Positions 40,878 to 57,193 of a DNA stretch of 64,000 nt are shown here, one piece after another. Each line of letters starts with the position of its first letter. The stretch's first letter is position 1. The stretch is from Planctomycetota bacterium. Its GTDB lineage: Bacteria > Planctomycetota > UBA1135 > GCA-002686595. Made by a program: the position numbers and the translations under genes. Under the pieces are notes generated by a model. It searched no databases and was not told the origin of the DNA. It saw nothing but the letters and a program-made list of their open reading frames with translations. The stretch spans positions 620,001 through 684,000 of the forward strand of contig JAEUHY010000015.1 of the NCBI GenBank assembly GCA_016795325.1, read 5' to 3'.

Positions 40878-43800
40878 TCAGTCGCCGATCCTCACCTTGA
40901 GCGAGCGTTCACTCTGGCCGCTCAGCGTCACGCTCTTCCACTCCGTCTTTCCGCCGGGCGGAGTCACGTAGACCTTGTACTTGCCCGGAGCGAGCGGGCC
41001 GACGCGCCGGCGTGTCGACGACATGCCGCCGCTCATCAGCTTCTGGATCGAGTCCATGCTCATCATCGTGGCGTGGTCGTGGCCCGCCTCGTCGAGCACG
41101 CGCACCTGGTAGCGCACGGCGCCGCCGGCTTCGTTCTCGATCTCGATGTCGAGCATCGTGGCCGCCGCTGCGCTCAGTTCGACTTCGCTCACGGCGCCTG
41201 ACGTGACGCGCACCGAGCTCGATGCGCCGGTCGCGGAACTCGCGCCGCGCGCGGCGACGGAGTACTCACCCGGGGCCGCCGACTCGTAGCGGAAACGCCC
41301 GAGTCCGTCCGTGCGGGTGTTCGAGAAGGGATTGATCAGCACGCCCTTGGCGTCGCGCACGAACACGCTCGCGTCGGCGAGCGGCTCGCCGTCGGCGCCG
41401 CGCACGACGCCGGCGATGGTTCCCGGCGCCTGGAGTTCGAACTCGACGTACGCTGCGCTGTCCGCGCCGACCGTTACACCCGAACGCACCGCGGCGCCCC
41501 AGGCTGCGCTCGCACCGAAGCCGGCGCCGCCAGCGCGCACGGTGTACACGCCCGGCGCGAGGCTCGGAATCTCGAACGCGCCCTGCTCGTCGGTCGTGTT
41601 GGGCCGCCCCATGTCGAACATCGTCAGGCCGCCGACGCCTTCGAGTTCGTGGCGCACCGCGACCCCACGCAACGGCGCGCCGTCGGCGCCGACGACGCGT
41701 CCGCGGATGGCGCCGCCGGGCAGCGCGAGGTCGAGCCGGTGCTCGGCGACCGCGGGGATCTCGACGAAGAACTCGACGCCGCCAGCGTCACCCATGCGGC
41801 GTCCGACGATGAGCGTGTAGCGGCCGGGCTTGTCGAGCGTGAGCGCGTAGTCGCCCTGCGCGCCGAGCGCGGCGAACTTGAGCGACTCCAGCATCGAGCC
41901 GCCTTCGGCGATCGCCGTCAGCGAGCCTTCGCGCACGGGCTCGTCGCCGCGCGTCACGCGGCCGCTGAGCTTCACCGGCGCCGCGGGCGGTGCGCCGAGC
42001 ACGACTTGCGACGTCTGGCCGTCGAAGACTTCGACGCTGGTCATCTTGAGCGAGGCCATCATCGAAGCCGGGTTGGAGTCGCGGCCCAGCGAGTTCATGC
42101 GCGGCGTCGCGACGAGGTTGTGCGTTCCGGGCGTGACGTGTTCGAGCGTGAAGCGGCCCGCGGCGTCGCTCGTCGCCTGGCCCGCCATGTCGCCGCCCGA
42201 GCCGGGACCGAACGAGCCGACGACGATCATGCGGCCGGCGTCGGGCGCGCCGCTCGCGTCGTACACCACGCCTTCGATGCGGCCGCCCACGCGCAGTTGC
42301 AGCACCACATCGTGCGCCGAGCCGCCGCTGTCGAGCTCGACCGTGCGCGGCTCGCTCGGTGCGAAGCCGTCGGCCCGCGCGACGAGCCGCACGGCGCCGG
42401 GGGAGAGCTTGGAGAGCACGAAGGCGCCCTTCTCGTCGCTGCGCGCGCTCGGACCTCCTCCGCCGCCACCGAATGGACCGCCGCCGAAACCGCGGCCGGT
42501 AGTGGCGCCGCTGCGGGCCTCGACGCGCGCTCCGCCGAGCGGCGCGCCCTGCGGAGAGAGCACGACGCCGGTCACTGCGGCCTGGCGGCGCAACACGAGC
42601 TCGAGCGGTGCTGCGAGCGGGACCTCGACGCGCGTCGCGGCCTCGTCGAGCGGCTCGAAACCTTCCGCGCTCACGCTCAGCTGGTGCTCGCCCGCGCCGA
42701 GCCAGATTTCGAAGGCGCCGTCGGGTGACTCGAACGGGCGTGCGTCGGCGTCGCTCGCGCGGCCAGCCACCCAGCGCGCGTTCAGTTGGAAACGTTGGAC
42801 CGGCGCCTGTTCGGTGTCGACGACGCGTCCGCGCACGGGCTGCGGCGGAGCGAGCACGAGCGCGAGCTGCGCGCCCGGTGCGACGTCCCGCTGCAGAGCG
42901 CTCCACTCGGCGTCGGCAGGAAGTTCCGGGCGGGCCGCGTCGGCGCCGCTCGCGCGCCGCGTCGCACGCACGTCGAAGCTTGTTCCGGTCAAGCCCGTGA
43001 ACGCGAAGCGTCCCGCGCTGTCCGACTTCATGCTCTTGCGCGAGCTGCGATTGGAAGGATTGACTTCGATGCACATCACTTCGGCGCCAGCCGCCGGCGC
43101 GCCATCCGGCGTGCTGACGAGGCCTTGGATGGACACGCCCGCGCCCAGCCGCAACTCGACCTGCGCCGTCTCTCCGTCCGCGAGTTCGAGGTCGGCGCTC
43201 GAGGCCTCGACGAATCCTTCGCGCGAGGCCGTGACGCGCAATTTGCCGGGCGAAACGCCGCGCAGGTCGAAACTGCCGTCCGCCGTGCTCTGCGCCGAAC
43301 GCGAGTCCCAACCGCCGCCGCCGAAGCCGCCGCGCGCCTCCGAACGCGCATTCGCCTGCGCGAGCGGTTGTCCATCGGGACCCAGCACGACGCCGCGCAC
43401 GCGCGCGCCGAGCTTCACCACGTATTCGCGCTGCGCCCGTTCACCGGCCGCCACGCGCAATTCGAAGTCGCGCACGTTCTGGAGCACCTGCGTGTCGACC
43501 GAGAGGAAGTACGACAGCCCAGGCCGGAGTCCGCCAAGTTCGAACTGCGTGCGCTCGACGAGCGTCGCGCTCGCGCTGTGCGAGTCCATGCCGCCGCCGC
43601 GCGCGCCGAAGCCCTGCGCCGTCGCCTTGAACGGCGCGAGCGCGTTCCAATCGACGTCCGCGGGCAGCGGGCTAGGCAGCACGAGCTTCGCGCTCAAGCA
43701 TCCGCCGAGCTTGGGCTCGAGCGTGACGCGCTCGAACGGCGCCGCGAGTTCCACTGCGCGCTCGAGGTACGAGTAGCGCGCGCTCAGGTTCAACGTCGCG

Positions 43801-44216
43801 CGCTCCACGCCGCGCGGCAGCGCGAGACTCGCGCGTCCGTTCGCATCGAGTTCGGCGCGCAGCTCCTCGCGCCCTTCGCCGCTGCGCTCGAACTCGACGA
43901 CCACGCTCGCGCGTTCATCGGCCGGCGTTCCCTCCGGCCAGCGCAGGTTGACCTCGAGCGTGCGCTCGCCCGGTGCGGCCGCCGCCGCGGTCCGCTGCGC
44001 GTCGCGCTCGACCTCGAGCGGCGCCACGTCCGTGGGCTGCGCCCCCGCGGGCCGCGCAGCATCGAGCTCGGCGCGCGCGCGCGGCGCCGCCGCCGTCGCG
44101 TCCGCGCCGCCGGACGCACCTGCTGACCCCGGCCGCGCGGTCGAGGTGTACCAAGCGAGGGCGCCGAGTCCGGCGACGACCAATCCGAGGACAGCGAAGA
44201 GCAGGTTTTTGTTCAT
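40878..44216 (-). CDS. Second anchored protein with about nine carboxypeptidase-regulatory-like repeats
   Basis: 1112 aa. Membrane anchor at the N-terminus (LLFAVLGLVVAGLGALAWY), Ala/Pro-rich linker (~25-75), then repeated beta-sandwich units, each opening G-x-(V/I)-x-G-x-V: GARVRGVVLGPDGQPLAQAN, GVSIQGLVSTPDGAPAAGAE, AAVTGVVLSPQGAPLGGARV, GGRIEGVVYDASGAPDAG, VKLSGRVTRGDEPV, GGAIRGRVVGADGAPLRG, PGTIAGVVRGADGEPLADAS. Two short Gly-rich loops (GRGFGGGPFGGGGGGP; GGFGGGGWDSR) occur. The layout parallels the 1207-aa protein at 8340-11963, so the two are likely paralogues. No enzyme domain; role inferred to be in the cell envelope. Confidence 0.84.
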   Translation of the reverse strand: MNKNLLFAVLGLVVAGLGALAWYTSTARPGSAGASGGADATAAAPRARAELDAARPAGAQPTDVAPLEVERDAQRTAAAAAPGERTLEVNLRWPEGTPADERASVVVEFERSGEGREELRAELDANGRASLALPRGVERATLNLSARYSYLERAVELAAPFERVTLEPKLGGCLSAKLVLPSPLPADVDWNALAPFKATAQGFGARGGGMDSHSASATLVERTQFELGGLRPGLSYFLSVDTQVLQNVRDFELRVAAGERAQREYVVKLGARVRGVVLGPDGQPLAQANARSEARGGFGGGGWDSRSAQSTADGSFDLRGVSPGKLRVTASREGFVEASSADLELADGETAQVELRLGAGVSIQGLVSTPDGAPAAGAEVMCIEVNPSNRSSRKSMKSDSAGRFAFTGLTGTSFDVRATRRASGADAARPELPADAEWSALQRDVAPGAQLALVLAPPQPVRGRVVDTEQAPVQRFQLNARWVAGRASDADARPFESPDGAFEIWLGAGEHQLSVSAEGFEPLDEAATRVEVPLAAPLELVLRRQAAVTGVVLSPQGAPLGGARVEARSGATTGRGFGGGPFGGGGGGPSARSDEKGAFVLSKLSPGAVRLVARADGFAPSEPRTVELDSGGSAHDVVLQLRVGGRIEGVVYDASGAPDAGRMIVVGSFGPGSGGDMAGQATSDAAGRFTLEHVTPGTHNLVATPRMNSLGRDSNPASMMASLKMTSVEVFDGQTSQVVLGAPPAAPVKLSGRVTRGDEPVREGSLTAIAEGGSMLESLKFAALGAQGDYALTLDKPGRYTLIVGRRMGDAGGVEFFVEIPAVAEHRLDLALPGGAIRGRVVGADGAPLRGVAVRHELEGVGGLTMFDMGRPNTTDEQGAFEIPSLAPGVYTVRAGGAGFGASAAWGAAVRSGVTVGADSAAYVEFELQAPGTIAGVVRGADGEPLADASVFVRDAKGVLINPFSNTRTDGLGRFRYESAAPGEYSVAARGASSATGASSSVRVTSGAVSEVELSAAAATMLDIEIENEAGGAVRYQVRVLDEAGHDHATMMSMDSIQKLMSGGMSSTRRRVGPLAPGKYKVYVTPPGGKTEWKSVTLSGQSERSLKVRIGD

Positions 44217-45560: not shown

Positions 45561-46427
45561 CTAGCTCTTGCTCGCACTGCCGAGCAGGTCGAGGAGCCAC
45601 AGCACGGTTTGCGCGGCGAGGAACACGATGATGATCCACTCGAGCGTGTGGCCGCGGCGCGCGAGCGAGAACTCGGTCAAACGCTGGCTGCAGAGCTCGA
45701 AAACGCGCTCCTGGGCTTCCAGCCTTCCGCCGGCGGCGTCCAAGCGCTCCTGAAGTCGCAGCCGCTCGCGCAAGCGCTCACCGACCTGGCTCGCGAGCGT
45801 CGGCGGATACACCTGCGGCGCCAGGATGCGCGGCGAGAGTTGCGCGAGCCTGCTGCGCAGGCCGACCAACGCCACGAATCGCGCCGCGAGCTCGGGCCGT
45901 CGCTCGAGCGAACGTTCGTCGAACTCGAAGGCCAGCGGCGCCACCTGCTCCATCGGCGCCCAACCGGCTTCGATCGCCGCTTCGATCTCGTGCAGTTCCT
46001 GTGCGACGCACGCGCCTTCGAGCGCGGCGCGCGCGGTCTGCGCCAGGCGCTCCGCCGGCGCGCACACCGCTAGCGCGCGCTCGCTGTGGGCGAGGACCGC
46101 GCCAGGCAGCTGCAGCACCGTGCACGGCGCGCCCGGCGCCGCGAAACGCTCCTTGAGCGCGTCGCGCAGCACGTGCGCCCACTCGGGCTGCTCGTCGTCC
46201 TCGCACGGCACGAGCAGCAACTGAAGCGTGATCTGCGGATCGGCGCTCGGCGCGAACTCCTGCAGTTGCTGCGGCGCCGTCGATGCGCGCTCGACCGGTT
46301 TGCGCCCGCCGACGCCGTTTGCGCCCAGGCATGCCGCTGCGGGGTCGGTGAGCGGAGCGAGAGCGATGGCGACGAGGCGCGTGCCCGCGGGAAACGAAGG
46401 GATGTTGGTCCGTGTGGTCGAGTTCAT
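45561..46427 (-). CDS. RMD1/DUF155-like membrane-anchored protein
   Basis: 288 aa. The second half is a helical coiled-coil region (VGERLRERLRLQERLDAAGG ... EAQERVFELCSQRLTEFSL) followed by one C-terminal span in the form HTLEWIIIVFLAAQTVLWLL. That end, coiled coil then EWIIIV plus one helix, is the signature arrangement of the RMD1/DUF155 family, so the call rests on architecture. The ATG overlaps the stop of the FAD oxidoreductase gene upstream (ATGA), indicating coupling. Function in bacteria is unknown. Confidence 0.55.
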   Translation of the reverse strand: MNSTTRTNIPSFPAGTRLVAIALAPLTDPAAACLGANGVGGRKPVERASTAPQQLQEFAPSADPQITLQLLLVPCEDDEQPEWAHVLRDALKERFAAPGAPCTVLQLPGAVLAHSERALAVCAPAERLAQTARAALEGACVAQELHEIEAAIEAGWAPMEQVAPLAFEFDERSLERRPELAARFVALVGLRSRLAQLSPRILAPQVYPPTLASQVGERLRERLRLQERLDAAGGRLEAQERVFELCSQRLTEFSLARRGHTLEWIIIVFLAAQTVLWLLDLLGSASKS

Positions 46428-47869
46428 GGGTAGCGCAGCGGAGCAGCGCCGCGCTGCGCGCTTTCGAAGGACGGTGGGCTCGCCGGGGGCCGGTCACCGC
46501 CCTGTTCGAGCCGCGCAGCGAGTTCTTGCGCGACGTAGTGCGCCGACTCGAGCACGCCGTTGAGCGTCGAGTCGAACAGATAGTCGCCGACGATGTGCAG
46601 GCTCGGACCGGCGCGACCGCACGGCAGGTGCCGTCGTTCGAGCGGCGCGGCTACACGCCCGCCCGGCATCGCGTTGACGGCGCCGATCCAACGCTGGACG
46701 CGGCCTTCGAGGAACACTTCGCGCGCGCCGGCGAACTCCGCGGGAAGTGCGTCGAGGGCGAGCTCGATCAGCTCCGCGTCGCTGCGCGAGGCGTGTTCGC
46801 ACGCCGCGTCGCCGCCGAGCAGCCAACCGAGCACGCCGTAAGGCGCCTCCGGGCGCCGCGCGGATTCGTCGTACAAGCAGGCGCCGCCAAAACGCTCCGA
46901 CATACCGAAGGATTCGTCGAACGCCCCGCGCCAGGGCGCGCGCGAAAAGAGCAGCGAGATGCGCAGGTAGTGCGCCGGATGGTCGTAGTGCGCGATGTGC
47001 CGGCGCAGGTCCGAGTGCAGCGGTTCGCCCTCGAAGCGCACCTGCGCCAGGCGGTCGAGGGGCAGCGCGAGCACGACGTGTTCGAACTCGCGTTCGAGCG
47101 GGCCGTCCGGCGTGCGCAGCGTCAGCCGCACACGTCCTGCTCCGCCGGCGCTCACGCTCTCGAGCGCGCAGCCGAACTTCACGCTCGCCCGCTGGCGTTG
47201 CGCGAGCTCGTGCACGATGCGCTCGTTGCCGCCTTCGATCGCGTACAGCCGCATGTACGCCGGGTCGTTCATCAAGTAGTTCTGCAGCCCGTAGCGCAGG
47301 TTGGTCTGGTGCGGCTCCGCGGCCAGATCCGAGTGGATCAGCCGCTCGATGTAGCGGCGCGTGAACGGATCGTCGATGCGCTCGAGCCAGCGCGCGAAGA
47401 GCGCCGGCGTGCGTTCGTCGGCGAAGCTCTCCGGCACATCGGAGTCGTAGAACTGCCGCGCGCCCATCCAACCGTGTGCGGCGCGATCGAAGGCTTCGAA
47501 GGCGCGCTCCGCCGGCGCTCCGCCGCGGCGGCGCAGGTCTTCGAGCGTCGCGACCCGCTCGCCGTCGAGCCACACCGCGCCGCCGTTCATCGCGACCGTC
47601 GGAAGCCCGAGTTCGGCGACCAGTTCGCGGAGCGGATCCTCGTCGACGGGGGAGTTGTCGTACAGCTCCGCAGCGCCGGCTTCATAGGGCGCGTCCAATG
47701 TCTGAAAGCGCGCCGTCAGCAGCTTGCCGCCGAGCCGCTCGCTGGCTTCGAAGACGGTTGCTTCGAACGGGCGAGCGGCGTGGCGCTCGAGCAGATGGGC
47801 GGTGAAGAGGCCGCCGGGCCCGCCGCCGACGATCGCCACCCGCGGAATGTGGGCCCAGGAGCGCTTCAC
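46424..47869 (-). CDS. FAD-dependent amine-oxidase-type oxidoreductase
   Basis: 481 aa from a GTG. Dinucleotide-binding motif at the N-terminus (PRVAIVGGGPGGLFTAHLLE), the GG-motif ERLGGKLLTARF, and the C-terminal FAD-closing motif LHIVGDYLFDSTLNGVLESA. The layout fits flavin monoamine oxidase/protoporphyrinogen-oxidase/phytoene-desaturase relatives. Substrate unknown. The frame is open for 43 more codons upstream, but these are Arg/Pro-rich. It lies 172 nt after the glycogen fusion gene and is coupled to the DUF155-like gene. Confidence 0.82.
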   Translation of the reverse strand: MKRSWAHIPRVAIVGGGPGGLFTAHLLERHAARPFEATVFEASERLGGKLLTARFQTLDAPYEAGAAELYDNSPVDEDPLRELVAELGLPTVAMNGGAVWLDGERVATLEDLRRRGGAPAERAFEAFDRAAHGWMGARQFYDSDVPESFADERTPALFARWLERIDDPFTRRYIERLIHSDLAAEPHQTNLRYGLQNYLMNDPAYMRLYAIEGGNERIVHELAQRQRASVKFGCALESVSAGGAGRVRLTLRTPDGPLEREFEHVVLALPLDRLAQVRFEGEPLHSDLRRHIAHYDHPAHYLRISLLFSRAPWRGAFDESFGMSERFGGACLYDESARRPEAPYGVLGWLLGGDAACEHASRSDAELIELALDALPAEFAGAREVFLEGRVQRWIGAVNAMPGGRVAAPLERRHLPCGRAGPSLHIVGDYLFDSTLNGVLESAHYVAQELAARLEQGGDRPPASPPSFESAQRGAAPLRYP

Positions 47870-48041
47870 GGGAACGAACAGGGCAGGCGGGCAGGGCGGA
47901 GACTGGGCACGGGAAGCGCTCAACCCGCGCCGCACTGCGGAGTTCCGCTCGGGCGAGCGACTTGCGCGGCCCGTGCGCGCCCTCGCGGGGCGGCGCACGA
48001 GCCGCGTCGTGTTGCGGGGGCTTGCTTGCGACCCGGCTGCT

Positions 48042-51000
48042 TCAGGCCCAGACGATCAGGTCGCTCAGGCCTTCGTCGAGCGTGCTCGGGCTCGCCGCGC
48101 GCACCCGCAGCCCGTACCCGAAGTTGCCCGAACGCGCGATGCGTTGGGCGCCGCGGAAGAGCTGCACCCCGTCGACCGGCGCGCCCTTGGGCTCGAGCAG
48201 GGCGACGAGGGGATTGCGCAGATCCGTCCCGTCCTTCGCGTGGCCGAGCAGCAGTTCGACGCGCAGCGCTTCGGGCGCGAGTCCCGCGAGCTTCACGCTC
48301 ACGCGCGCCTCGACCACGTCGCCCACGTGCAGGCCGGAGAGTTCGCTGACCTGCGCATCGACGATGCGCAACTCGGCGAACGCCTTGGAGAGCGCGGAGC
48401 GCTGTTCGACGTGGGCCCGCAGCGGCGCGAAGCGTTCGCGGCTGAGCTCCTTCGCGCGCGCCGCCAACTGCAGGTAGGCGCGGTCGCGGTACTCGCCGAC
48501 CATGCGATCGGTGTTGAACCAGGTCGGGATCGTCTCGAGGTTGCGCACGCACTTCTCGAGCCAGTGGCGCGGCACGCCGTGCTCGTCGCGCTCGAAGAAC
48601 AGGGGCAGGAGCTCATCGCGCAAGAGCCGCGCGATGTCCGCGCTGTCGAGTTCGTCCTGGTGAGCCGCGTGCGGCCAAACGCGACCTTCGCCGACGTTCC
48701 AGCCGTTGCGCCCGTCGTAGCCTTCGATCCACCAACCGTCGGGCACCGAGAGGTTGAGGCCGCCGTTGGCCGAGACCTTCATGCCCGAGGTTCCGCTCGC
48801 CTCGAGGTTGCGCACCGGGTTGTTGAGCCACACGTCCACGCCCTGCACGAGCGCGCGCGCCAGCTCCATGTCGTAGTCCTCGAGGAAGAACACGCGGCCG
48901 GCGAATTCCTTGCGGCGCGTGAGCTCGACGACGGCCTTGAGGATCTCCTGGCCCTGCAAGTCGCGCGGGTGAGCCTTGCCTGCGAAGAACAGGCGCAGCG
49001 GCCGTTCGGTCTGCTCGAACAGCCCCCGCAGGCGCTCGAGGTCGCGGAAGATCAGGTTGGCGCGTTTGTACGGCGCGAAGCGCCGCGCGAAGCCGACGAG
49101 CAGCGCGTTCTCTTCGAGACCCGCGAGCACGCTCGACATCAGCGCCGGACTGTCGTGGCGGTCGAGGAACGCGCGTTCGACGTTTTCGGCCGCGCGCGCG
49201 AGCAGGTTGGAGCGCAGCTCGCGGCGCACGCGCCACAGTTCGGCGAGGTCGAGGTTGTGCGCCCGACTCGCGAGGTCCGCTCCGTTGATGGGCCGCTCGC
49301 CGGCGCCGACCAAGGCGGCGATCTTCGGATGCGTCCAGGTCGCCAGGTGGATGCCGTTGGTGACCGCGCGCACCGGGACCTCGCTCTTGAGCAGGCGCGG
49401 CCAGTACGAGCGCAGCAAGTCCTTGGAGACCTCGCCGTGCAACCGGCTCACTCCGTTGACGAACCCCGCGAAGCTCAGCGCGAGGTAGGTCATGTTGAAG
49501 CTCGAGCGGTCCTCTTCGGTCTGACCCAGCGCAAGGAAACGCTCCCAGGTCACGCCGAGCCAACTCTCGATGTTCGAGAAGTAGCGCCGCATCAAGTCTT
49601 CGCCGAAGCGGTCATGCCCCGCCGGCACCGGTGTGTGCGTGGTGAAGACGGTGTTCGAGCGCACCAACTCGCGCGCTTGTTCGAACGTGAGCCCGTGCGC
49701 CGAGATCAACTGGCCGACGCGGCTCAGCACGAGGAACGCGGCGTGCCCTTCGTTGATGTGCCACACCGCGGGCTGGATGCCCAACGCCTTGATGAGCTTC
49801 GCGCCGCCGCGGCCGAGCACGATCTCCTGGCGCAGTCGGTGCTCGTGGTCGCCGCCGTAGAGCTGGCGCGTGATCGCGCGGTCCTCGGGGCGGTTCGACT
49901 CGACATCGCTGTCGAGCAGGTACAGGTCCGTGCGACCGACGGCGACCTTCCAGGCGCGCAGGCGCAGCTCGGAGGAAGGCATGTGCACGAGCACTTCGAC
50001 CGGACGACCTTGCCCATCGCGCACCAGCTCGAGCGGCAGGTTGCGCGGATCGTTGAACGCGTCCTCGGCGAGTTGTTCGCCCGTGGCCGTGATGCGCTGG
50101 CGCAAGTAGCCCGCTCGGTAGAACAAGCCGACGCCGATCATCGGCACGCCGATGTCGCTGGCCGACTTGAGGTGGTCGCCGGCCAGGATTCCCAGGCCGC
50201 CGCTGTAGACGCGCAGCGACTCGTGGAGGCCGAATTCGGCGCTGAAGTACGCGACCGGATGCTCGGCGCTGATCTCGCCGGCGTGCAGCGTGGGCTTCTC
50301 CGCCATGTAGGCGTCGAAGCGCGCGAGCACGCGGCGGAGCTTGGCGAGGAACGCGACGTCGGCGGACTTGGCGGTCAAATCCTCGGGGAACACGAGGCGC
50401 AGGAACGAGACGGGATTGCGTCCCGAGGTGGCCCAACCGACGGGCGAGATCTCCTCGAAGAGCGAGCTCGCCTCCGGATCCCAGCACCAGTAGAAGTTGC
50501 GCGCGAGGCGCTCGAGCCCGGCCAGTTCCGCGGGCAAGGTCGCCGCCACTTGGAAGTTGAACAGGCGCGGCTTGTGCGCTTCGGCAGTGGGCGCGACGGC
50601 GACGTTGACGCGCGGGCGGAAGCTCGAGAGCGGGAGTTGATCCGCGCGCAACTTCGCTGCAGCGGCCGCTGCGTCGAAGGCCTTGTAGTAGTGCTGGACC
50701 AAGTCCTTCCAGGCCGTGCGCTGCGCCGTGCGCCGGCAGGTCTCTTGCATGTCCGGACGGCCGAGGTCCTCGGCGATGAAGCGCTCGATACTGCGCGCCA
50801 ACTCGGCGGTCGCATCCGCGAAGCTGACACCGGCGCGGGGCAGGATCCACACGCCGTCAGAGGGCGCGAGCTTCTCGGCCTTGGCCCACAGGCCGAAACC
50901 GGCGAGATCCGTCGTGACGGTCGGCACTCCGACGGCCAAGCTCTCCTCCGGCGTGTAGCCCCAGGGCTCGTAGAACGAGGGGAAGAGCGACAGATCCGCG

Positions 51001-52283
51001 GCGCGCAGCACCGCTTCGTACGGCAGGTTGAGCACGCCGTCGGCTTCGTGCAGGTAGATCGGGACCTGCACGATGCTGACGCGATCGAGCGCCTTGTTGT
51101 CCAGGCCCAGGCGTTTGGCGGCCTGCTGGATCGGATCGTGGTCGGGGTCGATCAGGTTGTGCGTCGAAGCGCCGATCGCCGCGCCGTTCTCTCGGAAGCC
51201 CTCTTCGAGTCGCTGGCGCAGCCCTTGGCACACGCCCGACTGACCGGCGGGCACCGTGAAGAACACGACGACGCGCCGCCCAGGGTTGGTGTTCACCTTG
51301 GCGCACGCTTCGAGCAGCAGGTCGATGCCCTTATTGTGGAACTCGTAGCGGCCCGAGTTGAGCAGCACGACCGCGTCGTCGACGGAGCGGCCGAGCATGA
51401 GGCGCGCGACGTTGAGCAGCCGCGCGCGCGCCTCGGGGCGCTGCACGGGGCCGGCGATTTCGTCGACGACCGACAGGTCGATCCCGTTGGGCAGCAGCGG
51501 GCTGGGTGCGCGGCCGAGCAGCAGCTCGGCCTCCGTCGCCGTGATGTTGCTCACGGTCGTGAACACGTCCGCTTCGCGCGCGCAGACCGACTCCATCGAG
51601 TGCTTGGAGCGCACGCCGACGTCCGTCGCGGCCTGTTCCGGCGTGCGGCCGGCGAGCCCCTCGGCCGGAGTCTTGCCCGAACTTGACACGCTGCGCCCGA
51701 GGATCGTGGCGTGCGTCGTGAACACCGTGCCGACGGCGGGTTGCTGCTGCTTGAGGTACAGCAGCCCCGAGCCCGTCATCCACTCGTGGAACTGCGCGAC
51801 GGCGAGCGCGTTGTTCCGCGCACCGTAGGCCTGCATCCAGCGCTCGATCACCATGCCCGCGGCCCAGCCGAACATCACCGGCTCGTCGTAGTCCCAGCCG
51901 CCGGAGATCGAGTCGACCTTGAACTTGTCCCACAACGTGGCGAGCACGTCGTTCTTCTTGGCGAACAGGCCCGAGAACTCGACCAGGATCGTGCGCGGCC
52001 GGCCCGGGATCTTCCAGCGTCCGACGCGCACCGGCACGCCGAGAGCGCGGCAATTCTCCGCAAAGCTCTCGAAGCCGGGCTCCTCGTCGAACACCTGCGA
52101 GGCCTCGCGGCCGCCCAGCATCCACGGCCCGATGGTGACGTAGTCATCACCGAAGCGCTCGACCAGCGTCTTGGCCTTGGTCGAGACGACGGTGTGGATG
52201 CCGCCGACCTTGTTGCAGACTTCCCAACTGACTTCAAACAGCGTGAAACTCACAGGGGACGGCTCAGGTTGTCGATGCGGCAA
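48042..52283 (-). CDS. Fusion of GT3 glycogen synthase and GT35 alpha-glucan phosphorylase
   Basis: 1413 aa. Residues ~10-560 are a eukaryotic-type GT3 glycogen synthase (LFEVSWEVCNKVGGIHTVVS; VFTTHATILGR; LLNSGRYEFHNKGIDLLLEA; SFYEPWGYTPEESLAVGVP). Residues from ~573 begin with DUF3417 (FNFQVAATLPAELAGL) and continue as a GlgP-type phosphorylase (AYFSAEFGLHESL; VWHINEGHAAF; THTPVPAGHDRF; PLP lysine K1169 in EASGTSGMKVSANGG). A ~100-residue beta domain ends the protein. One chain thus carries a nucleotide-sugar-dependent synthase and a phosphate-dependent degrading enzyme. Start: TTG at 52283 with GAGGA upstream, overlapping the GH57 end by 20 nt; GTG at 52253 is the alternative. Last gene of the alpha-glucan operon. 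Confidence 0.92.
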   Translation of the reverse strand: MPHRQPEPSPVSFTLFEVSWEVCNKVGGIHTVVSTKAKTLVERFGDDYVTIGPWMLGGREASQVFDEEPGFESFAENCRALGVPVRVGRWKIPGRPRTILVEFSGLFAKKNDVLATLWDKFKVDSISGGWDYDEPVMFGWAAGMVIERWMQAYGARNNALAVAQFHEWMTGSGLLYLKQQQPAVGTVFTTHATILGRSVSSSGKTPAEGLAGRTPEQAATDVGVRSKHSMESVCAREADVFTTVSNITATEAELLLGRAPSPLLPNGIDLSVVDEIAGPVQRPEARARLLNVARLMLGRSVDDAVVLLNSGRYEFHNKGIDLLLEACAKVNTNPGRRVVVFFTVPAGQSGVCQGLRQRLEEGFRENGAAIGASTHNLIDPDHDPIQQAAKRLGLDNKALDRVSIVQVPIYLHEADGVLNLPYEAVLRAADLSLFPSFYEPWGYTPEESLAVGVPTVTTDLAGFGLWAKAEKLAPSDGVWILPRAGVSFADATAELARSIERFIAEDLGRPDMQETCRRTAQRTAWKDLVQHYYKAFDAAAAAAKLRADQLPLSSFRPRVNVAVAPTAEAHKPRLFNFQVAATLPAELAGLERLARNFYWCWDPEASSLFEEISPVGWATSGRNPVSFLRLVFPEDLTAKSADVAFLAKLRRVLARFDAYMAEKPTLHAGEISAEHPVAYFSAEFGLHESLRVYSGGLGILAGDHLKSASDIGVPMIGVGLFYRAGYLRQRITATGEQLAEDAFNDPRNLPLELVRDGQGRPVEVLVHMPSSELRLRAWKVAVGRTDLYLLDSDVESNRPEDRAITRQLYGGDHEHRLRQEIVLGRGGAKLIKALGIQPAVWHINEGHAAFLVLSRVGQLISAHGLTFEQARELVRSNTVFTTHTPVPAGHDRFGEDLMRRYFSNIESWLGVTWERFLALGQTEEDRSSFNMTYLALSFAGFVNGVSRLHGEVSKDLLRSYWPRLLKSEVPVRAVTNGIHLATWTHPKIAALVGAGERPINGADLASRAHNLDLAELWRVRRELRSNLLARAAENVERAFLDRHDSPALMSSVLAGLEENALLVGFARRFAPYKRANLIFRDLERLRGLFEQTERPLRLFFAGKAHPRDLQGQEILKAVVELTRRKEFAGRVFFLEDYDMELARALVQGVDVWLNNPVRNLEASGTSGMKVSANGGLNLSVPDGWWIEGYDGRNGWNVGEGRVWPHAAHQDELDSADIARLLRDELLPLFFERDEHGVPRHWLEKCVRNLETIPTWFNTDRMVGEYRDRAYLQLAARAKELSRERFAPLRAHVEQRSALSKAFAELRIVDAQVSELSGLHVGDVVEARVSVKLAGLAPEALRVELLLGHAKDGTDLRNPLVALLEPKGAPVDGVQLFRGAQRIARSGNFGYGLRVRAASPSTLDEGLSDLIVWA

Positions 52284-53517
52284 TTTGTTCCTCGTCGAGC
52301 GTCGCGAGCGCAGCGCGGATGCGCCGCGCCAGGTCGTCGTAGACGTTCATGAACGAGATGAACGCGTCGTGCGGGGTGGCGTAGGGGGAGAAATACTTGT
52401 GCACGTCCCCATCGGAAAACCACTTGGTGCACATGTAGTAGACGTGGTCAGAAGTGCTCAGCTTGCGCCACTCGAGGTAGGGCTCGACGACGCCGGCGCG
52501 GGCGAGCTTCCAGGCGTCGGGCAGCAGTTGGTACAGCGCTTCGTGCGCCGCCTTCTGCATCTGGTTGCCCAGCCAGGCGGTCAGGTCGCGTTCCGCGTCG
52601 GCCCACGAAATCGGGCGCGGGATGTCCAGGCGCGCCACGGGGTCGAGTTCCTGCCCGATCTCGCGCGGCGTCTGGAAGCGCAGCTTGTTCGTGGCGAGGC
52701 ACGCGCCGGGGAGTTCGCGCATGAAGCGGAAGATCCCGGTGTTCTCCCACTGGTGCTCACCGAAGGTCTCGTAGTCCATGAACAGGCCTACGAACTTCTC
52801 GCGCGGTCCGAGCGCGGCGAGCCAGCCGGCGAAACGCTCCGCGCTCAGCGGGTACTCGGGCCACTCCTTGTTCGAGAAGCGGAAGGCGATGTCGTCGGAA
52901 TAGCGGTACGAGCGCAGCAGGAGCTTGATCTTCTCGCAGCCCTCGGGGCGGTACACGCGGTTGGGGCTGCGCCAGCCCAGCAGCGGGTCGGCGCCCTCGC
53001 CGAGGATCACCTCGAACCCCAGCTCCTCGGCGCGCCGCGCGATCGCGTTGGAGATCACCAATTCGGTGTTGCGGAAGGTCGTGGGGCGACGGCCGAAGAG
53101 CTTTTCGATGCGCTCGGCGTGGCTGATCACCTGGCGGTCGAACTCGTCCATCGAGACCAGTCCCGCCAGGGAGTGGCTCGCCGTCTCGCCCAGGAACTCG
53201 ACGCAGCCGGTCGCGGCGAGCGCCTGGAAGCTGGTCAGCGCTTCGGGAACCCAGCGTTCGAACTGCTCGAGCGCCGTGCCGGTGATCGAGAACGCGACGC
53301 GGAAGCGACCGTCGAACTTCTCGATCTGCTCGGCGAGCAGCTTGTTCATCGGCAGGTAGCACTTCTCCGCCACGCGCCGCACGATGCGCGCGTTCTCCGC
53401 GTCGTCGAAGCGCTCGGCGCCCGCGCCGATGTCGAAGAACGAGAAGCGCCGCAGCCGAAAGGGCTGGTGCACCTGGAAGTAGAAGACGATCGAACGCATG
53501 TGCGCGCCGTCTGTCAT
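52264..53517 (-). CDS. GH57 alpha-amylase-type glycoside hydrolase
   Basis: 417 aa. GH57 motifs in order: VHQPFR near the N-terminus, GETASHSL, the nucleophile E152 in FRNTELVISN, the acid/base D248 in FMDYETFGEHQ, and a C-terminal helical part. The family covers alpha-amylases, 4-alpha-glucanotransferases and branching enzymes; this is the short alpha-amylase form. No signal peptide, so it acts on cytoplasmic alpha-glucan. A second Met six codons on (MRSIVFYF) is a possible start. Confidence 0.9.
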   Translation of the reverse strand: MTDGAHMRSIVFYFQVHQPFRLRRFSFFDIGAGAERFDDAENARIVRRVAEKCYLPMNKLLAEQIEKFDGRFRVAFSITGTALEQFERWVPEALTSFQALAATGCVEFLGETASHSLAGLVSMDEFDRQVISHAERIEKLFGRRPTTFRNTELVISNAIARRAEELGFEVILGEGADPLLGWRSPNRVYRPEGCEKIKLLLRSYRYSDDIAFRFSNKEWPEYPLSAERFAGWLAALGPREKFVGLFMDYETFGEHQWENTGIFRFMRELPGACLATNKLRFQTPREIGQELDPVARLDIPRPISWADAERDLTAWLGNQMQKAAHEALYQLLPDAWKLARAGVVEPYLEWRKLSTSDHVYYMCTKWFSDGDVHKYFSPYATPHDAFISFMNVYDDLARRIRAALATLDEEQIAASTT

Positions 53518-53576: not shown

Positions 53577-55154
53577 TCAGCGCACGAGTTCGGCGTACAC
53601 GTCGTGCAGGCGCTTGCCGCGGTCGGTCCAGCTCATCGCGCGCACTTCGTCGCCGCCCGCGGCGAGCACGTGCTCGCGCAGCGCCGGGTAGCGCAGCAGC
53701 GCGAGAATTTTGTTGGCGATTTCTTCGACGTCCCAGAAGTCGACCTTCAGCGCGTTCGAGAGCACCTCGGCCACGCCGCTCTGGCGTGAGACGATGACCG
53801 GCGTGTCGAGCGCCAGCGCTTCGAGCGGCGAGATTCCGAACGGCTCCGACACCGAGGGCATCACGTACACGTCGGCCATCGAGTAGATGCGTTCGACGTC
53901 GGGCCCCTTGAGGAAGCCGGTGAAGTGCACGTGCCGCGCCAAGCCCATGCGCGCGGCGCGCTCGACCATCTTCGGCAGCATGTCGCCGGCGCCGACCATC
54001 ACGAACTTCACGTTGGGCTCGACCTCGACGACGCGCTTGGCGGCCTCGAGGAAGTAGTCGGGCCCCTTCTGGAACGTGACGCGGCCGAGGAACAGCACGA
54101 GCGGCTCGGCGAAGTTCTTCACCGCGCGCAGGCGCTCGCGTTGCTCCTTGCGCGTGACGGCGTTGTGCACCACGCGCAGCCGCGCCTCGTCGACGCCGTA
54201 ACGTTCGCGCAGGATTCCCGCGGTGTAGTGGCTCACGCACACCACGCGTGCGGCCGAGTCGACGCCCGCTTGTTCCAAACGCCGGATGCGTTCGTCGACG
54301 TTGTCGCCGCTGCGGTCGTACTCACAGGCGTGCACGTGCACGACGAGCGGAACACCCAGGCGCCGCGCCGCGAGCGCGCCAGCGGGGAAGGTCATCCAGT
54401 CGTGGGCGTGCACCAGGTCGAAGTGCTCGCTCGCGGAGAGTTGGTCGACGCAGCGCGCGTAGCGCTCGACCTCCGCGAAGAGATCTGCGCCGTAGTCGCC
54501 GCGAAACTCGTAGCGCTCGTGACGCGGCTGCCAGGGCGCGTGCGCCTGGGGCTGCGCGTCGGATTGCGGCGCATTGGATTGCGGCGCGTCGAAAGCGGGC
54601 GCGCTCGGCGGTTCAGCCTCCGATGCGTCGAGCTCGGCGAAGGCGACGTTCGCTCCGTCGAGCGCTTCCAACTCGGCGGCCGCCTCGCGAGCGAGCGCCG
54701 CGTGCTCCCGCTGCTCGCGCGCCTGCTGCAGCGCGAGATCGTGCAACTCCGACAACGCGGCGAGCCACTGCTCGTACTGCTCGGCGCTGAAGTACGCCGA
54801 GAGCGGCGCCACCACGGGCTCGGGCGCCACGAAGCGGATCGGCTCGCGAGGAGCCTCTCTCCGGACCTTGATCGCTGTCGCAGTGCGCGCGGGCGAGCGC
54901 CGTGCGCTGTGGGGCGCGGCGCCGAGTGTCGCAGGCTGCGCTACGAGGCGTTCCGGCTGCGCGCGCTCGATCCAAACTTGGTTCGCGCCGACCACGCGCG
55001 CGAAGCGGGCGTCCTCGTCACCGACGGCGCGCGGCACCATGAACGTCACCTCGACGCCCGCGGCCTTCAGGCCTTCGCACAGGCCCAGACACGCTGTGGC
55101 CAGACCTCCGGTGATGTGCGGCGGGAATTCCCAGCCGAGCATGAGCACTTTCAT
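53577..55154 (-). CDS. GT4 glycosyltransferase, alpha-glucan synthase-like
   Basis: 525 aa. Opens MKVLMLGWEFPPHITGGLAT, as in GT4/GT5 alpha-glucan synthases. A ~130-residue insertion rich in Ala/Glu/Pro (~80-215, including DAPQSNAPQSDAQPQAHAP) interrupts the first Rossmann domain before HFDLVHAHDWMTFPAG. The C-terminal domain has VLFLGRVTFQKGPDYFLEA and the EX7E motif in SVSEPFGISPLEALALDTPV. Donor presumably a nucleotide-glucose. It is 20 nt after the debranching enzyme gene and 59 nt before the GH57 gene. Confidence 0.88.
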   Translation of the reverse strand: MKVLMLGWEFPPHITGGLATACLGLCEGLKAAGVEVTFMVPRAVGDEDARFARVVGANQVWIERAQPERLVAQPATLGAAPHSARRSPARTATAIKVRREAPREPIRFVAPEPVVAPLSAYFSAEQYEQWLAALSELHDLALQQAREQREHAALAREAAAELEALDGANVAFAELDASEAEPPSAPAFDAPQSNAPQSDAQPQAHAPWQPRHERYEFRGDYGADLFAEVERYARCVDQLSASEHFDLVHAHDWMTFPAGALAARRLGVPLVVHVHACEYDRSGDNVDERIRRLEQAGVDSAARVVCVSHYTAGILRERYGVDEARLRVVHNAVTRKEQRERLRAVKNFAEPLVLFLGRVTFQKGPDYFLEAAKRVVEVEPNVKFVMVGAGDMLPKMVERAARMGLARHVHFTGFLKGPDVERIYSMADVYVMPSVSEPFGISPLEALALDTPVIVSRQSGVAEVLSNALKVDFWDVEEIANKILALLRYPALREHVLAAGGDEVRAMSWTDRGKRLHDVYAELVR

Positions 55155-55174: not shown

Positions 55175-57193
55175 TCAGGTTGTCTCGCACAGCGCGTACG
55201 CGCGCAGCAACTCGGCGCTGCTCCAAGCCTGCGCGAAACAGCCGCCGGGGCGGTGCGGCGGATCGCCGTCGAAGACTTCCGAGACGTGGTTGAGGCCGTG
55301 GCCGCCGAGTTCGACCGCGAAGCCGTCGAGCAGCCGCCGCAAGTGCGAGCGCGTCGTGGCGTTGGCGCCGTGCGCGCGCAGGTACGCCTCGACGTAGAAA
55401 CCCGTGAGCCACGGCCACACGGTTCCTTGGTGGTAGGCGCGGTCGCGCTCGAGCGTCCCGCCGCCGTAGCGGCCGATGTACGCCGGATCACGCGGCGCCA
55501 ACGTGCGCAGTCCGCGCGGCGTGAGCAGATCGTTCTCGGCGACGCGCACGATGTCGGCGCGCTGGAGCACGCTCAGCGGCGAGAACTCGAGCGCGGCGGC
55601 GAGCACCATGTTGGGCCGCACGCTCATGTCCGCGCGTCCGTCGAGCCAGACGTCGGCGAGGTGCCGGCGCTCGGGCAGCCAGAAACGCTGCAGGAAACTC
55701 GCGCCGGCCTTCTCGCGCGCGCTGCGCCACTGCGCGGTCTGCGCGCTCTTTCCGCTGCGGCCGGCGAGCTCCTCCAAGTGCGCGAGCAGCGCGTACCACA
55801 GCGCGTTGATCTCCACCGCAAAACCGTGGCGCGGCGTCACCGGACCGCTGGGCGTGACCGCGTCCATCCAGGTCGCGTTGGTGCGCGCGTCGCCGGCGCG
55901 GATGAGCAGCCCGTCGTCGCACGCGATGCCCAGCGCCGTGCCGCGCGCGTAGCACTCCGCGATCTCGACCAGCGCGGGCCGCAAGCGGCGCTCGATGCGC
56001 TCCTCATCGCCTCCGGCGAGTTCGTACAGCCGCACGGCGCGCGCGAACCACAGCGATGCGTCGACGGATCCGTAGTGGCTCGTCGCCGCATCGCGCCCGA
56101 AGATGTTGGGCATCAACCCGTCGCGCATCAGGCGCGTCGCGCCTTCGAGCGCTTCACCGCACTCTTCGACGCGGCCGCGCGCGAGCAACAGGCCGGGCAA
56201 CGAGATGTACGTGTCGCGGCCCCACTCGAGGAACCAGGGGAAGCCGGCGATCACGCCCAGACGCCCGTCGCGCGAGCGGTAGAGGAAGTCGTCGGCGCCC
56301 AGTTGCAGCGCGAGCGGCGCGCTGGCGAGCGTGGCGCCGGCGCGTTCGCGGCGTTGGCGCTCCTGCAGGTTCCACAGCTGCTCGAGGTCGACCGGCGGCT
56401 CGCGCAGCGTCGCGCAGACGAACGCCGACTGGCCCGGCTCGAGCCGCACGCGGAACTGTCCGGGGCTGAAGTGGTCTTCGTGGCCGTCGTAGCCGCGCTC
56501 GAGGTCCACGCGCAACTCGACGTTGCGGTACCACAGCGGATCGGCGTGGAAAGCGCCGTCGCCCGCGAGCTGGAGCGCCATCGCCGGCAACGCTTCGTAG
56601 GGCTTGAAGCGCAACGTGCGCTTGGCGCTGTCCAAGTACTGCACCTCGGGATGCAGGTCCACGTTCTCGTGCGTCAGCGCGTCGGCCTCGCGGAACGTGC
56701 ACAGGGGCCGCAGCCGCAGCTCGATCGGCGCCTGCGCGTCGAGCCAGTCGTGGCGGATGAGCACCGTGGGCGAACCCTTGACCATCAGCAGCGAGCGCAC
56801 GAGCGTCGCGCCGCCGATGCGGTGCGTCCAGGTCGGATACGGCCGCAGCTCGAAGCTCTCGAGCGTCTGGTGTCCGGCCGGATTCCACGCGCCGGGATAA
56901 CGCACGAGCGACAGCGCGAAGTGTTTCTCGCCGCCGTCCGCCAGCGCGACTTCGCTGGTGCTGTGCACGCTCTCTTCGAAGCGCGCGAGGAACGAGTAGC
57001 GCTTCTCGCTGAGCGACGTGGGCGCCACCAGCATCCCGTGGTAGCGACGCGTCGGGCACTGCAGCACGGTCGACGACGCGTAGCCGCCGAGCCCGTCGGT
57101 CTCGAGCCACTCCTTGGTGAGCGCGTAGTCGAGCTCGAGCAGGCGCTCGCGTTCGAGGCGCAGCAGCGGGGGACGGGTGCGAGGGCGGGCCAT
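55175..57193 (-). CDS. Glycogen debranching enzyme (amylo-alpha-1,6-glucosidase, GH133 type)
   Basis: 672 aa. N-terminal beta-rich domain (KEWLETDGLGGYASSTVLQC; PTRRYHGMLVA) and a C-terminal (alpha/alpha)6 barrel with GFPWFLEWGRDTYISLPGLL, GSVDASLWFARAV, NATWMDAVTPSG, MSVRPNMVLAAAL and YHQGTVWPWLTGFYVEAYL. It removes alpha-1,6-linked glucose stubs. It is first in the operon that continues with GT4, GH57 and the synthase-phosphorylase fusion. The Met at 57193 heads the conserved body; upstream in-frame residues appear random. Confidence 0.93.
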   Translation of the reverse strand: MARPRTRPPLLRLERERLLELDYALTKEWLETDGLGGYASSTVLQCPTRRYHGMLVAPTSLSEKRYSFLARFEESVHSTSEVALADGGEKHFALSLVRYPGAWNPAGHQTLESFELRPYPTWTHRIGGATLVRSLLMVKGSPTVLIRHDWLDAQAPIELRLRPLCTFREADALTHENVDLHPEVQYLDSAKRTLRFKPYEALPAMALQLAGDGAFHADPLWYRNVELRVDLERGYDGHEDHFSPGQFRVRLEPGQSAFVCATLREPPVDLEQLWNLQERQRRERAGATLASAPLALQLGADDFLYRSRDGRLGVIAGFPWFLEWGRDTYISLPGLLLARGRVEECGEALEGATRLMRDGLMPNIFGRDAATSHYGSVDASLWFARAVRLYELAGGDEERIERRLRPALVEIAECYARGTALGIACDDGLLIRAGDARTNATWMDAVTPSGPVTPRHGFAVEINALWYALLAHLEELAGRSGKSAQTAQWRSAREKAGASFLQRFWLPERRHLADVWLDGRADMSVRPNMVLAAALEFSPLSVLQRADIVRVAENDLLTPRGLRTLAPRDPAYIGRYGGGTLERDRAYHQGTVWPWLTGFYVEAYLRAHGANATTRSHLRRLLDGFAVELGGHGLNHVSEVFDGDPPHRPGGCFAQAWSSAELLRAYALCETT

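Follow-up and report, generated by a model that had tools for sequence, protein, structure and literature searches.

In textbook glycogen control, synthase and phosphorylase are separate enzymes that are oppositely regulated. Several described systems come close to the locus discussed here, in which a GT3 glycogen synthase and a DUF3417-GT35 phosphorylase form one polypeptide. The nearest is the split pair of GT3 and glgP in Bacteroides, Parabacteroides, and Segatella relatives, where the same short GT3 and the same DUF3417-GT35 type occur in the same gene order, but as two separate adjacent genes. Annotated split examples come from Bacteroides finegoldii and Parabacteroides distasonis; these two split pairs, unlike the fusion, do not adjoin the GDE-GT4-GH57 gene module introduced below. 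Eukaryotic GT3 enzymes (human GYS1 and yeast Gsy2p) have their fold and catalytic residues in common with the synthase half of the fusion, but the latter lacks the arginines for glucose-6-phosphate and the tetramerization insert, and it carries a phosphorylase. A long, eukaryote-like GT3 of some Planctomycetota and Bacteroidota belongs to the same family and, unlike the fusion, does have the insert. On the phosphorylase side, the DUF3417 phosphorylases (TIGR02094; Thermococcus, Meiothermus, and unfused planctomycete proteins) match the whole GT35 half, including DUF3417 and the C-terminal region, but are devoid of a GT3 part. The TreS-Mak/Pep2 bifunctional fusion is likewise a covalent joining of two alpha-glucan pathway enzymes, although, according to excerpts of a 2024 review (PMC11046441), it concerns other enzymes and another pathway, with both steps in the same direction. 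Those excerpts, from a review that does treat bacterial GT3, do not name the GT3-GT35 fusion, and our search of openly licensed papers found no published description of it.

The window (the whole stretch of planctomycete DNA that was analyzed, 64,000 nucleotides long) holds the fusion as a single open frame of 1413 codons with zero internal stops. Its parts, in window coordinates, are the following.

48042..52283, minus strand: fused GT3 glycogen synthase :: DUF3417-GT35 alpha-glucan phosphorylase, 1413 aa (GTG at 52253 as another possible start)
50649..52247, minus strand: GT3 glycogen synthase domain (PF05693), residues 13-545, short bacterial type without tetramerization insert
50544..50648, minus strand: linker of low conservation, residues 546-580, core 559-577 predicted to be disordered (pLDDT <50)
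50214..50537, minus strand: DUF3417 domain (PF11897, 103 bits), residues 583-690
48414..50213, minus strand: GT35 phosphorylase core (TIGR02094, 741 bits), residues 691-1290, nearest solved structure 9l6i
48777..48779, minus strand: codon of the PLP lysine K1169, invariant among fused, split, and unfused relatives
48045..48413, minus strand: C-terminal extension, residues 1291-1413, into which alignments with an unfused DUF3417 phosphorylase model and an 852-aa solved chain reach

Both halves are recognized well above curated cut-offs, confirming the earlier note's claim that a GT3 synthase and a DUF3417/GT35 phosphorylase share one polypeptide in one frame. The Pfam model PF05693 (Glycogen_syn), with a cut-off of 27 bits, scores 290.8 over two stretches (best 17-347), and Pfam also places DUF3417 (583-690) and Phosphorylase (839-1187) above their cut-offs. 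In NCBIfam, residues 677-1271 reach 741 bits against a cut-off of 191.7 for TIGR02094 (alpha-glucan family phosphorylase); the classical GlgP/MalP profile TIGR02093 is not reached by the fusion (76.8 bits, cut-off 552.9). A family search of the source genome returned the fusion as a single copy.

An AlphaFold2 model of residues 13-1203, built with 50 fused homologues, has a mean pLDDT of 89 and a pTM of 0.86, and falls below a pLDDT of 50 in the linker core. Both folds are thus confidently modeled, with a linker predicted to be disordered between them, and the pTM hints that the domains may have a preferred arrangement. In Foldseek searches, the modeled GT3 half matches the human and yeast glycogen synthases, and the GT35 half resembles its Segatella copri homologue 9l6i (41% identity), which was deposited in the PDB as a glycogen phosphorylase.

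Since adjacent split genes do occur in Bacteroides-type genomes, one may ask whether an assembly or frameshift artefact has merged two genes. The probability of this is negligible. A congener has the same frame, with 85% identity across all 1413 residues, and many independent assemblies repeat it: the named genome collection holds the in-frame fusion at 76 of 80 loci; of the remaining four, three run off their contigs and the last is interrupted by an in-frame stop. Three-base periodicity is continuous across the linker (GC3 0.86). Between source and congener, linker divergence at codon positions 1 to 3 is 0.29, 0.17, and 0.57; because change is greatest at third positions, the linker evolves as coding sequence. 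The frame error that the earlier note had kept in mind is therefore excluded by the linker periodicity and the shared frame in independent genomes. Separately, we observed two fused genes from Bacteroidota with a single in-frame stop, reflecting either an assembly error or a pseudogene.

The fusion is the last gene of a module on the minus strand, in the order debranching enzyme, GT4, GH57, fusion. Its three partners are listed here.

55175..57193, minus strand: glycogen debranching enzyme (amylo-alpha-1,6-glucosidase, GDE_N + GDE_C; PF06202 + PF12439), first in the module
53577..55154, minus strand: GT4 glycosyltransferase of ~525 aa, supported by synteny, with maltose-1-phosphate synthase GlgM as the nearest solved chain (weak match)
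52264..53499, minus strand: GH57 enzyme of ~411 aa, assigned from PF03065 (222 bits) and synteny

The debranching enzyme scores 327 bits against TIGR01561, slightly below the cut-off, and the GH57 enzyme has the catalytic-type motifs HQP, NTE, and DYETFGEHQ. The start of the fusion is ambiguous (TTG at 52283, or GTG at 52253 directly past the GH57 stop); as the GH57 gene ends at 52264, the two genes abut or overlap depending on the start chosen. Where a locus extends far enough to judge, the debranching enzyme, GT4, and GH57 all precede the fusion on its own strand in 16 of 24 loci from Planctomycetota, 36 of 48 from Bacteroidota, and 4 of 5 from Desulfobacterota. The GT4 of the source lineage has a low-complexity, Ala/Glu-rich insert between its halves, which Bacteroidota relatives seem to lack. 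Outside the conserved module, a flavin amine-oxidase family protein is encoded directly downstream of the fusion (46424-47998, minus strand), and a probably exported protein of 1112 aa with seven carboxypeptidase-regulatory-like repeats lies at 40878-44216 (minus strand).

Elsewhere in the source genome, the genes for GlgC and a GT5 GlgA are separated by ~13 kb, and a second GT5 GlgA is also encoded, so that the GT3 half is not its sole possible glycogen synthase. No GH13 branching enzyme was found in this assembly (90% complete), and the GH57 enzyme of the module is a candidate for the branching activity. A second, weak GH57 match in the genome was discounted, as the high GC content of the DNA makes a frame arising by chance the probable cause.

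The earlier note supposed that related fusions may exist in other phyla. This is borne out in Bacteroidota and Desulfobacterota, but the rarity that it implied is wrong, as the fusion is usual in Bacteroidales and present in many Planctomycetota. In fact, short bacterial GT3 is usually fused in Planctomycetota, Desulfobacterota, and Bacteroidales alike. GT3 occurs in 60 of 392 planctomycete genomes (42 of the short bacterial and 18 of the long eukaryote-like type), and all 40 short-type copies that could be determined are fused, some of these 40 having been followed only to a contig end; the other two look unfused because their contigs end inside the synthase half. In Desulfobacterota (the phylum of Avidesulfovibrio), GT3 is found in 9 of 198 genomes and is fused in 9 of 9. 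In Bacteroidales (the order of Dysgonomonas), 175 of 198 genomes have GT3, and among the matches listed, the 145 short-type entries comprise 119 fused (~82%), 23 split-sized, and 3 unclear ones by our own count from open-frame length. Examples of named, cultured bacteria with the fusion are Capnocytophaga canis, Dysgonomonas, Labilibacter, and Plebeiobacterium. The fusion is old and common; far from being a one-off oddity, it belongs to a widespread but under-described family. The long eukaryote-like GT3 (~585-600 aa) covers the full PF05693 model with the tetramerization insert present, and none of those sampled has a GT35 part. In the tree, planctomycete and Bacteroidota sequences of this long type are intermixed, a pattern suggestive of horizontal transfer.

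Trees of the GT3 and GT35 halves agree in outline, with Bacteroidota (including split forms), Desulfobacterota, and most Planctomycetota as matching groups. The split pairs are nested in this same family tree: all 14 split loci, in each of which (14 of 14) the synthase and phosphorylase genes remain neighbors, form one clade (support 1.0) beside fused Labilibacter and Plebeiobacterium (0.989 and 0.999 in the two half-trees), a placement repeated in the concatenated tree (99). Because the split genes are one clade nested among fused ones, the separate adjacent genes of Bacteroides, Parabacteroides, and relatives probably arose by fission. When the fused Bacteroidota are constrained to a single clade, the concatenated data (p-AU 0.024) and the GT35 half (0.005) reject the constraint, and the GT3 half does not (0.42). 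A group uniting all fused forms has good support in the GT3 half (0.907) but not in the GT35 half (0.307). The simplest reading is a single old fusion followed by a single fission, with repeated fusion as the alternative to fission. Fission in Bacteroides relatives would mean that the tether is dispensable, which counts against the tethered enzyme proposed below.

The signature motifs, described earlier as intact on both sides, are so for the residues examined, and the loss of catalytic residues in one half, which would have spoken against that description, was not observed. On the synthase side, alignment to the human and yeast enzymes points to R197, R312, K318, E439, and E447, which we take from yeast Gsy2p numbering to be involved in donor binding and catalysis; nearly all of the 95 fused or split sequences of the short type retain them. 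On the phosphorylase side, twelve GT35 residues are invariant in 114 of 114 sequences. Among them is K1169, in the motif EASGTSGMK, previously proposed as the PLP lysine and upheld by this comparison.

Features of eukaryotic regulation, on the other hand, are missing from the GT3 half. Human GYS1 binds glucose-6-phosphate through R579, R582, and R586 (PMC9287172). These align to L507, P510, and E514 of the fusion, and no conserved arginine occurs at the equivalent positions across the fused family. The tetramerization-helix segment is ~30 aa long in the short type versus 78-83 in the long one, and GYS1 residues 373-443 are mostly without a match in the alignment with the fusion. Loss of the insert as a consequence of fusion is ruled out, as split Bacteroides-type GT3 also lacks it. 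With both the arginines and the helices absent, the control by glucose-6-phosphate hinted at earlier is not favored.

We therefore propose, with a probability of about 0.75, a tethered bifunctional storage-glucan enzyme in which substrate levels, and not the eukaryotic glucose-6-phosphate/phosphorylation switch, determine the direction. The GT3 half would add glucose, probably from UDP-glucose, at the non-reducing ends of glycogen, and the tethered DUF3417/GT35 half would take glucose off the same ends as glucose-1-phosphate. A single operon may supply the fusion, debranching enzyme, GT4, and GH57 by co-transcription. The tether would impose a 1:1 stoichiometry and may keep both activities on one glucan particle, where the levels of UDP-glucose versus phosphate and glucose-1-phosphate would decide the net direction. 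Tight flux control or a degradation/resynthesis cycle, as put forward in the earlier note, are plausible purposes of such a fusion.

Other roles can be envisaged. The second synthase route offered by GlgC and the two GT5 GlgA genes would fit an enzyme with only one catalytic half, the other being a glucan-binding or scaffold part; for example, GT3 might anchor the phosphorylase while the GT5 GlgA synthesizes. We consider this unlikely, since a scaffold would allow residue loss, whereas very divergent sequences from three phyla have retained the catalytic residues on both sides. Moreover, GlgC is reviewed as missing from gut Bacteroidetes, yet Bacteroides fragilis still accumulates polymer (PMC10395257). 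The action of both enzymes on the same non-reducing ends, together with the debranching enzyme in the gene cluster, could also point to a cycle of outer-chain trimming by the phosphorylase and regrowth by the synthase, which would adjust chain length and not net storage; it would waste nucleotide sugar, and we deem it improbable. Equally doubtful is a self-priming synthase, in which the reversed phosphorylase would use glucose-1-phosphate to make or rescue maltodextrin primers for a primer-dependent GT3 half; were it true, a tethered phosphorylase would do the job of glycogenin in bacteria.

For the tethered bifunctional storage enzyme that we favor, the implications extend beyond the source lineage. 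As most Bacteroidales sampled have a fusion devoid of the eukaryotic glucose-6-phosphate site, bacteria that are abundant in the gut and the environment may balance storage and use differently from the textbook scheme. The derived split pairs of Bacteroides relatives, finally, would provide a natural comparison of fused and separate enzymes in tractable organisms.
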